Shown here one piece after another: positions 38,756-47,333 of a DNA stretch of 64,000 nucleotides. Every line of letters starts with the position of its first letter. Position 1 is the first letter of the stretch. The position numbers and the translations under genes are program-made. The notes under the pieces are model-generated. The model was given only the letters and a program-made list of their open reading frames with translations, was not told the origin of the DNA and did no database searches. Location: the NCBI RefSeq assembly GCF_002855515.1, contig NZ_PKRP01000005.1, forward strand, positions 1-64,000, read 5' to 3'. The DNA comes from Rhizobium sp. TH135. GTDB lineage: Bacteria > Pseudomonadota > Alphaproteobacteria > Rhizobiales > Rhizobiaceae.

Positions 38756-38840
38756 GCCCCATTGGCGGAACTGGTAGACGCGCTCGACTCAAAATCGAGT
38801 TCCGAAAGGAGTGCTGGTTCGATTCCGGCATGGGGCACCA
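38756..38840 (+). tRNA. tRNA-Leu (anticodon CAA)
   Basis: The acceptor stem pairs GCCCCAT (38756-38762) with ATGGGGC (38830-38836), and ACCA follows, so CCA is encoded. The anticodon arm is CTCGA-CTCAAAA-TCGAG, placing CAA at positions 34-36 (reads UUG). A variable arm typical of the type II leucine tRNA and a T-loop GGTTCGATTCC are present. Length is 85 nt including CCA. Confidence 0.97.
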
Positions 38841-45610: not shown

Positions 45611-46189
45611 ATGGTCAAGCTCAACAAGATCTACACCCGCACCGGCGATGACGGCACCACGGCCCTGGTAACAGGCCCCCGCCGCCTGAAGCACGACCTG
45701 CGCGTCGACGCCTATGGCACGATCGACGAAACCAATTCGGCAATCGGCATCGCCCGGCTGCATACGGCTGAGATGCCGGAGCTCGACGCCATGTTGATGC
45801 GCATCCAGAACGACCTCTTCGACCTCGGCGCGGATCTCGCCGCCCCCGAAACCGGGGAAGTGCTCTCCTACGAGCCGCTGCGCGTCATCGAGGCCCAAGT
45901 CGACCGGATCGAGAAGGAGATCGACCAGCTGAATGCAGAGCTGGATCCCTTGAAATCCTTCATCCTCCCCGGCGGCACGCCCGCCGCCGCCTATCTGCAT
46001 CTCGCCCGCACGACGTCGCGTCGGGCTGAGCGCATCATGGTGGAACTGTCGCGCTTCGATGGCGAGGAAGTTGGCGAGCCGGCGCTGAAATACGTGAACC
46101 GGCTGTCGGACTTTCTGTTTGTCGCGGCACGCCATGCGAATGATGGCGGCAAGGCGGATATTCTGTGGGTGCCGGGGAAGAATAGGTAG
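45611..46189 (+). CDS. Cob(I)yrinic acid a,c-diamide adenosyltransferase (PduO type)
   Basis: This enzyme moves the adenosyl group of ATP to cob(I)alamin, completing coenzyme B12. The 192-aa product shows LNKIYTRTGDDGTTALVTGP at the start (ATP loop), VDAYGTIDETNSAIGIARLH and the late RTTSRRAERIMVELSR with YVNRLSDFLFVAARHAN, all hallmarks of the PduO/MMAB family. Length is typical. A G-rich ribosome site precedes the ATG. No other cobalamin gene is in the window. Confidence 0.94.
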   Translation: MVKLNKIYTRTGDDGTTALVTGPRRLKHDLRVDAYGTIDETNSAIGIARLHTAEMPELDAMLMRIQNDLFDLGADLAAPETGEVLSYEPLRVIEAQVDRIEKEIDQLNAELDPLKSFILPGGTPAAAYLHLARTTSRRAERIMVELSRFDGEEVGEPALKYVNRLSDFLFVAARHANDGGKADILWVPGKNR

Positions 46190-46299: not shown

Positions 46300-46337
46300 G
46301 TCCGTTCGTCGTGCCCCCATCACCGATCCCCTCACCA

Positions 46338-46407
46338 ACAAAATCTGAGGTTTAGCCCTGACCGGGCTAAGCCCTCGATTTTGTAACCTCTCCCACAAGG
46401 GGAGAGG
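46338..46407. repeat. Palindromic intergenic element B
   Basis: ACAAAATC (46338-46345) pairs with GATTTTGT (46377-46384) and TTTAGCCC (46351-46358) with GGGCTAA (46364-46370). A second hairpin, CCTCTCCC/GGGGAGAGG, follows at 46387-46407. The end pattern (CTCTCCC, short loop, GGGGAGAG) is common in Rhizobiaceae intergenic repeats. It could also act as a terminator for the adenosyltransferase gene. Confidence 0.6.
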
Positions 46408-46592
46408 GGAAAACCAATTGTCAAAAACCCCAAGCTTCGCCGCCGGTCGGGATTGCTCCCTCCGGGTCGGGTTATGCTTGTCTCGGACGAGGCGCCAGAA
46501 GCAACCTGTCTAAGTAATTTACGTGGCTCCTTCCGGCGCCTCGTTCGGCGTCCATTCCCGCTGCATGCATCTCTCTGGCAAGGCGGCGACGG

Positions 46593-47128
46593 TCCTTGGA
46601 ACTTGCGTTCCAGGGAAGACCGGGCGCGGGTCCGGCTTGACAGAGTCATCCCGAGGGAAAGTCTGCCAGAGCCTGGCCGGTGGCCCGGGAGGTTCCCGCC
46701 GGATGGTGCACCATTCCGACCGGGACCCTCGCCCGGGGGATGATCGTCCGGCCATTGGCGGCCCGGCGCTCATCCCCGCCGTTTGTTTCGCCCCGCTGTC
46801 TGGGTGTTCGCGACAGCGCTGGCGCCTTGTCTGTGTGCCTCTGAGGCACGTCCTTCCGATCAGGGTATCCAGGTTTTGGGGAGCATCCGACCCCATCACC
46901 CTCGTCAAGCCCTTCGTCCGGAGGGAGACCGTTGCAGCGGGCCGGGGGTCTGCACCTGCGAGAGTGCTCGCCCCCGGCGCCGGCCCCGCCTCGCCTGACA
47001 TCGCATCGTCAGGTGTATCCGAGGGCGGGACGGGGATGAATCTACGAGGGTGGAATTGGTGGGGGATGAAAAAACATGTGGGGGTTTGATTTTACTGGGA
47101 GATTTTTGGAATTCGTCCCCCTTTTTTT
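46593..47128 (+). ncRNA. Candidate structured non-coding RNA (hairpin-dense block with terminator)
   Basis: At least eight successive strong hairpins are visible: 46593-46616 (10-bp stem, TTGC loop), 46686-46698, 46701-46716, a nested stem 46736-46777 (8 perfect outer pairs), 46794-46818 (7 pairs), 46835-46849, nested 46862-46902, 46942-46977 and 46994-47013. A further stem, 47061-47070 with 47112-47121 (10 pairs, one wobble, long loop), is followed directly by seven T residues (47122-47128), like a rho-independent terminator for the plus strand. I do not recognise it as RNase P RNA, tmRNA, 6S or SRP RNA. The 5' end and promoter are not identified. A repeat relic or chance GC-rich DNA remain alternatives. 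Confidence 0.32.
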
Positions 47129-47169
47129 GGAGAATGGGGCGGTCTTTCGTGACCGTCTGGTCTCAGAAG

Positions 47170-47333
47170 GCTTGTGTTTGGATCCTCGGGTCAAGCCCGA
47201 GGATGACGACCTTCTGGGGTGGATCAGGGTATTCTCCTCCGACGTTGTGCAATGGAGACTGAAGAGGAGGATACCATTCGCTCCCCTCACACTCCGTCGT
47301 CCTCGGGCTTGACCTGAGGATCCAGTCACAAGC
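47170..47333. repeat. 164-bp nested palindrome (MITE- or BIME-like element)
   Basis: Two copies of an approximately 40-bp repeat face each other (47170-47210 and 47296-47333), sharing GCTTGTG, GGATCCTC, GGTCAAGCCCGAGGA and GACGAC, with few differences. Each copy is itself a small palindrome (TCCTCGGG-tcaag-CCCGAGGA in the left one). Inside, GGTATTCTCCTC (47228-47239) pairs with GAGGAGGATACC (47264-47275). The whole can fold as one long hairpin. Confidence 0.65.

Follow-up and report, generated by a model that had tools for sequence, protein, structure and literature searches.

Positions 46593-47128 of the window (the whole 64,000-nt stretch of Rhizobium sp. TH135 DNA analyzed here) hold one strong hairpin after another, and the question raised by this locus is what kind of element such a block represents. 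The sequence-only reading took it for an undescribed long structured RNA, read from the plus strand and ended by a terminator. The density of hairpins was indeed above chance. The predicted fold of minus-strand 46480-47031 reached -295 kcal/mol against -243.5 +/- 6.0 kcal/mol for dinucleotide shuffles (8.7 SD below the shuffles, with 0 of 100 equally stable), and the plus-strand reading of the same interval lay 5.0 SD below its shuffles. Conservation across 64 near-full-length copies rose at ~46420 and fell at ~47130, and within this alignment blocks that were more than 95% conserved alternated with hypervariable loops. The limits given to the block therefore had to be redrawn: the conserved unit runs from ~46420 to ~47130, the RNA from 47031 down to ~46440 on the minus strand, with a predicted length of 550-600 nt, and the strongest hairpin (46487-46544) falls outside the original limits. 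The 64-copy alignment, the covariation and the fold excess (z -8.7) leave little doubt that 46440-47031 on the minus strand is one copy of a gene for a large, structured non-coding RNA, with a firm core at 46484-47031 and an uncertain 3' end. The gene is presumably transcribed.

A protein-coding block was ruled out, since in each of the six frames the longest open stretch dropped to 40-60 amino acids in some copy and the two long open frames of the block had no Pfam match. A known RNA was ruled out as far as Rfam covers 46300-47300 and 17 divergent loci. Rfam 15 returned nothing at the gathering score over 46300-47300, where matches at E values up to 10 all scored far below it. Among the 17 divergent loci it found a tRNA in L018 only, and across the window only a tRNA at 38756-38837. 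The tRNA gene in L018 (1336-1408) lies less than 100 nt from one RNA copy. With no Rfam match, strong covariation, frames broken in other copies and no Pfam match, the claim of an undescribed long structured RNA held, and conservation and covariation, which had been set beforehand as its tests, both came out in favor of an RNA. The open-access full texts gave no description of the RNA in the parts covered (PMC11109978, PMC10469942, PMC3738593 and PMC2881028 included). Part of the RNA may already be the Rhizobiales-1 motif (Weinberg et al. 2010, PMC2864571), a comparison made by its table row alone; as this motif has no Rfam accession in Table 1 of that paper and so stands outside Rfam, an earlier priority for part of the RNA is possible.

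The conserved structure was analyzed in two alignments. The alignment of the 5' domain was reduced from 74 to 37 rows by removing two odd rows and near-duplicates, and a larger alignment was reduced from 114 to 68 sequences by removing near-duplicates and from 68 to 66 by removing two rows of unfit length. The folding that we propose on the minus strand comprises a 5' domain (E1, E2 and F), a long-range helix D-B that encloses a variable center, and a 3' hairpin, A. Helix E1 (47024-47031 with 46983-46990) and hairpin E2 (47009-47013 with 46994-46998), which together span 46983-47031, had 99.5% and 100% of their cells paired in the 37 sequences. Hairpin F (46941-46978, with arms 46964-46978 and 46941-46955) corresponds to inverted repeat I8; it showed double changes at 10 of 11 pairs, with 83.8% of cells paired. 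Over the 21 pairs of the 5' domain, 91.4% of 771 cells were paired in the 37 non-redundant sequences, 124 cells were changed on both sides against 41.6 after shuffling, and the covariation score was 0.507 against 0.201 after shuffling and at most 0.163 with the partners slid; shuffle tests can be inflated by kinship, and sliding the partners by 1-3 columns erased most of the signal. Helix A, a 19-pair hairpin at 46487-46544, had 94.7% of 1251 cells paired in 66 sequences. Its double changes, found at 13 pairs, numbered 129 against 31.9 after shuffling, and its covariation score was 0.358 against 0.168 after shuffling and at most 0.120 with the partners slid.

The halves of the long-range helix, box D (46920-46930, GGTCTCCCTCC) and box B (46557-46573), lie ~350 nt apart in the window copy. 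Positions 46925-46929 of box D pair with 46569-46573, box B also pairs with 46937-46941, and the helix showed compensatory exchanges with several pair types. Comparison of the copies further placed hairpin C in the CGTGCCTCAGAGGCAC region (46835-46849). RNAalifold favored pairing of the 3' strand of E1 with box D over E1 itself. Since E1 and this alternative helix each fit the 37 sequences, a switch of the RNA between the two pairings is possible.

Upstream of E1 lies a -10-like box (TAGATT on the minus strand, 47039-47044). The box started 12-13 nt before the first base of E1 in 98 of 113 unique copies and was followed by a GC-rich stretch; from this distance, the transcript is predicted to start at 47031, the first base of helix E1. 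A conserved TCATCCCC motif occupies the -35 position (47062-47069, minus strand), as seen from the spacing across copies: among the 85 in which both elements could be placed, CCCC precedes the -10-like box by 21-22 nt in 74. The -35 motif of this promoter-like region is unusual, and a generic sigma-70 scan detected no promoter. It was at this site that the sequence-only reading had put its plus-strand terminator. The inverted repeat itself is present in the sequence (47061-47070 with 47112-47121, ten pairs, one of them T-G, followed by seven T residues at 47122-47128), but its reading as a plus-strand terminator is not supported: it overlaps the -35 motif in the promoter region of the minus-strand gene, its loop is 41 nt long, and the T-run, found in most of the main-clade copies listed, is absent from the G014 and G006 copies among those listed. 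The terminator scan, which admits loops of 3-8 nt only, found no terminator on the minus strand; as the 41-nt loop exceeds its limit, the scan does not bear on the 47061-47128 stem. Upstream of the RNA promoter, a TTGATTTTGTTGGGGAAT-type block (47086-47103), a possible regulator site, is kept in many copies of the genus. Palindromes of the type ATCCTCGGG..CCCGAGGAT lie at 47182-47204 and 47300-47322, in a piece that matches Sinorhizobium plasmids; similar ones occur as insertions in variable loops of RNA copies L014, L049, L070 and L072.

The sense of the RNA was judged from the wobble pairs, the fold depth and the promoter-like box, all of which point to the minus strand. On that strand the ratio of G-U to A-C was 47:14, 41:4, 47:5 and 39:6 in four helices, which were named only after the ranked candidate list was known, and which we report alongside an opposing stem (46776-46780 with 46582-46586) with a ratio of 13:30 against the minus strand and 69% Watson-Crick cells. 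An earlier, smaller alignment had given 34:1 for the minus strand in helix E1 and a tie of 12:13 in helix A. A plus-strand RNA, as first proposed, could draw on the stem with its T-run at 47061-47128, on a fold that lies below the shuffles on that strand too (z -5.0) and on the one stem with opposite wobble; we set it aside as very improbable, given that the wobble in the better-supported helices and the -10-like box favor the minus strand, the fold is deeper there, and the T-run is lost from the G014 and G006 copies. Nor does a structure acting at the level of DNA, as in chromosome organization or as a recombination site, seem at all probable. Rhizobial intergenic regions do commonly hold dispersed palindromic DNA, but the one-strand excess of G-U over A-C in four helices is expected of a strand-specific RNA instead, and the fixed distance of the -10-like box and the long-range helix also argue against a purely DNA-level role.

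At the downstream end, a further hairpin after helix A (46441-46464, minus strand), read from the sequence, may mark the 3' end of the RNA. Of 53 copies from outside the clade of the window copy, 29 have another type of hairpin after helix A, against 4.1 after shuffling; it is absent from all 14 copies of the window's clade, which carry a different one. Behind the window copy stands a convergent cobalamin adenosyltransferase gene (45611-46189). Between this gene and the RNA lies a 21-nt inverted repeat (46338-46384) that ends in ATTTTG and is conserved in part next to other copies; it may serve both as a terminator in two directions.

The window genome holds five copies of the RNA, and the other four are 86-88% identical to the window copy over ~700 bp. 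Among 60 relatives searched, 30 gave matches, two of them (G049 and G054) short, weak and in other families, and a profile search tied in shorter, diverged copies from other members of the genus. The named genomes among the matches listed include Rhizobium, Neorhizobium, Aliirhizobium, Shinella, Agrobacterium, Ciceribacter, Xaviernesmea and Ferirhizobium. Listed matches from outside the Rhizobiaceae (Streptomyces, Kosakonia, Aeromonas and others) were rejected as chance, their surroundings lacking the other boxes of the RNA. Genomes were tallied with R1, a covariance model of the RNA 5' domain, under strict filters and with part of the candidates scored (18 per genome in the family and outside-family samples), so that copies may be missed: in the genus R1 detected 141 copies, up to 7 per genome, spread over 30 of 40 genomes, and in the family it was positive in 28 of 199 genomes, which cover 19 of its 109 genera sampled. 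Outside the family R1 found no copy, as the hits in 2 of 199 and 1 of 41 genomes all turned out to be family members. One genome, G162, gave up to 18 hits, some being repeats beside N; its tandem copies were discounted as probable scaffold joints. A phage origin was also considered and rejected. The search pattern occurred in six viral contigs. Judged by their boxes, only two of these, L215 and L216, seem to hold genuine copies, and L216, from a viral collection, also carries a J-domain neighbor.

Several RNA copies have behind helix A a small open reading frame with a C-x4-C-R-R motif, which we call the CRR protein. Its signature is C-x4-C-R-R-x3-C plus a fourth cysteine. C33, C38, R39, R40, C44 and C64 were invariant in 31 of 31 aligned members, and little else was conserved beyond the four cysteines and the arginine pair. 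The protein appears zinc-finger-like and may bind zinc. A profile built from six such pieces and iterated over the six frames of all loci gathered by then gave 62 open reading frames in 62 loci, and wherever the RNA block had been mapped, the CRR frame lay on the RNA strand (33 of 33, with 0 opposite). A Shine-Dalgarno-like stretch preceded 17 of the 17 starts listed, under a lenient pattern. No meaningful match was found for CRR proteins in Pfam (8 proteins), NCBIfam (8), PHROGs (5) or PADLOC (5); the best of the weak matches were DUF6400, below the cut-off at E 0.12, and an unnamed PHROG at E 0.018. The CRR protein of L171 had no tblastn match in plasmid and phage records. The predicted model of the CRR protein (mean pLDDT 81, pTM 0.72) had among solved structures no relative by sequence and no clear one by fold, an absence that in itself proves nothing. 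A weak row for the DnaA DNA-binding domain (Z 3.1), which bears on the helix-turn-helix question taken up below, was not significant. An arginine-rich protein with four cysteines is plausible as an RNA binder, and in view of the lack of a clear structural relative it is the motif and the position of the gene that suggest RNA binding.

The linkage of RNA and protein was analyzed by searching for CRR genes independently of the RNA in the 40 genomes of the genus. This gave 42 places in 29 genomes. Of these places, 34 begin 300-896 nt downstream of an RNA 5' domain and share its strand; none of the 42 lay near the RNA in any other geometry within 3 kb. Both RNA and protein occurred in 28 genomes, the RNA only in 2, the protein only in 1 and neither in 9 (Fisher p 1.9e-6, kinship ignored), and the one genome with the protein only has a contig end at the place expected for the RNA. 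Eight CRR places had no preceding RNA hit: three begin no more than 410 nt into a contig, one lies at a contig end, and the other four, which contig ends do not explain, had no R1 match at E 0.01. Seen from the RNA, a CRR gene follows 34 of the 141 copies and is missing behind 107, the copy in the window included. The only CRR match of the window genome (L004:2359-2961) lies on another contig, behind the RNA copy G000:C8:551956-552649.

The family sample gave a CRR match in 29 of 199 genomes. RNA was present in all 15 of those matched at E 2.5e-9 or below and in 3 of the 14 with weaker matches. Ten weak CRR places (L346-L355), taken from those 14 genomes, had no convincing RNA nearby, with a best R1 E value of 0.041, and were rejected as probably unrelated proteins. 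Conversely, 10 of the 28 RNA-positive genomes of the family had no CRR match at E 1e-4. In an order-wide sample the only CRR match among 101 genomes came from the window's own genome. For one locus, the order RNA, CRR gene and convergent J-domain gene recurred in 5 of the 6 loci that have the J-domain gene (a member of the genus, Ciceribacter thiooxidans, two Shinella and one viral-collection contig); the sixth, L096, had no CRR match.

Copies with and without a CRR gene were alike in their structure. In helix A, 634 of 673 cells were paired in CRR-less copies and 310 of 328 in CRR-linked copies, and the -10-like box was present in 40 of 46 CRR-less and 22 of 22 CRR-linked copies. The junction GATCGCCAAGGG or a close variant, which forms the CRR ribosome-binding site, occurred in 14 of 114 copies, 6 of which had a CRR match. 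Such junctions stand without a CRR match in L097, L118, L133, L137, L149, L167, L198 and L199, as if the gene had been lost.

By their flanks on the helix A side, the copies sort into orthologous groups, the larger ones with 12, 9, 6 and 5 loci and every locus of a group from a different genome, next to some smaller ones, which indicates that the copies hold chromosomal places. The sequences of the copies follow a different pattern. Within a genome, their mean identity was 0.915 (137 pairs), and copies at the same locus, one from the main clade and the other from G014 or G006, gave 0.686 (29 pairs); inside the main clade, copies from the same locus (0.879) were no closer than those from different loci (0.875). 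Of the 64 copies, 43 had their closest relative within their own genome, 1 had it at the same locus, and 20 had it at neither; locus labels were available for 44 of the 64. This looks like concerted evolution resembling that of rRNA genes, probably through gene conversion between copies. The leading strand was not favored (20 of 39, from 40 stretches of which one had no pattern hit), in which the RNA differs from many highly expressed genes.

Taken as a whole, the explanation that we consider narrowly probable is a multicopy RNA gene whose product would join the CRR protein in a ribonucleoprotein that works in trans. Every copy has a promoter-like sequence of its own, and the predicted 5' end of the RNA is the first base of E1. 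The CRR protein would come from one or a few loci, and the RNA-only copies would raise the dosage of the RNA, gene conversion keeping them alike as in rRNA genes. The comparisons establish the conservation and structure of the RNA, its strand by covariation, the promoter-like box, and where the CRR gene lies and how it co-occurs with the RNA; transcription, zinc, RNA binding, action in trans and gene conversion are inferred. A fuller statement, which we offer tentatively and at a little under even chances, is that the Rhizobiaceae possess an unrecognized ribonucleoprotein, with a multicopy RNA of ~300-600 nt homogenized like rRNA genes and a dedicated CRR protein, that serves a basic cellular or stress function in trans.

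The main rival to this trans-acting ribonucleoprotein takes the RNA for a cis-acting leader of the CRR mRNA, that is, a protein- or ligand-sensing 5' untranslated region, with the gene-less copies as decoys or decaying duplicates. A leader would fit the CRR gene lying directly behind the RNA with its ribosome-binding site and with no terminator noticed between them, and box D (CUCCCU) could pair with the AGGGAG of some CRR ribosome-binding sites. The GATCGCCAAGGG-type junctions, most of them without a CRR match, would fit loss of the gene from copies that once had it. However, 107 of the 141 genus copies have no CRR match behind them, and copies without the gene retain helix A and mostly the -10-like box, which a pure leader would not need, so that trans action is favored, and the concerted evolution of the gene-less copies suggests that they are in use. 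We regard the leader as unlikely, at about one chance in four. Less probable still is that the unit is a mobile or repetitive element that passes through an RNA stage, its spread aided by the CRR protein and its gene-less copies non-autonomous. Dispersed copies are many, with up to 18 hits in G162, and those within one genome are alike. Such an element would be expected at non-orthologous sites with a transposase or recombinase; instead, the flanks on the helix A side are orthologous across species, one RNA locus is common to different genera, and the recurrent neighbors examined included no transposase-like family. Some of the G162 hits, moreover, are the repeats beside N that probably reflect assembly joints.

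By kind, the RNA stands near the large ornate RNAs with dedicated proteins, such as OLE, and near the Brt-Trp modules, and the tests made gave it no membership of a known family. OLE is reported to function as part of a ribonucleoprotein that includes small proteins (PMC9723947, PMC12054373). Like OLE, GOLLD and ROOL, the RNA described here is hundreds of nucleotides long with an intricate conserved structure. Unlike them, it was found only in Rhizobiaceae and has no Rfam match, reaches 7 copies per genome in the sample of the genus, with concerted evolution, and has a partner gene directly behind some copies. The Bartonella Brt RNAs are reported to be 194-203 nt long, and all nine are followed by a gene for a Trp helix-turn-helix protein (PMC5387305). 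These resemble the present case in being multicopy RNAs of the same order with a small-protein gene directly behind; the RNA here, in contrast, reaches ~600 nt, its protein is the four-cysteine CRR protein, and most copies have no protein gene. A same-strand small-protein gene directly downstream was found for the RNA family as a whole (34 of 42 CRR places) and not for the window copy, and the 8 CRR proteins compared with Pfam gave no match at the cut-off that would indicate a helix-turn-helix.

Bacteria have few large structured RNAs, and for several of them no function has been assigned yet. This one is multicopy in many soil- and plant-associated species, relatives of root-nodule and crown-gall bacteria, and its candidate protein partner, small, cysteine-rich and previously unnamed, offers a direct handle on its role. 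That places are kept while sequences are homogenized, a behavior best known from rRNA genes, suggests selection on dosage or identity. Because RNA and protein have no match in Rfam, Pfam, NCBIfam, PHROGs or PADLOC, annotation based on these libraries misses the RNA and leaves the protein unnamed.

Trans-encoded small RNAs of the Rhizobiales (the alpha-r families, suhB/mmgR) are intergenic, have their own promoter and, in some families, occur in several copies. The RNA described here is much longer, has a long-range helix and matches no Rfam family. A CUCCCUCC stretch within it resembles the anti-ribosome-binding-site motifs of those small RNAs. The RIME/RUP-type repeats of rhizobia are short, dispersed, intergenic palindromes that form strong hairpins. 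The RNA unit is likewise a dispersed intergenic repeat with strong hairpins, but it differs from such short palindromes in its covarying long-range structure and its promoter-like box. Palindromes that resemble RIME/RUP sit beside, and even within, the variable loops of the RNA.
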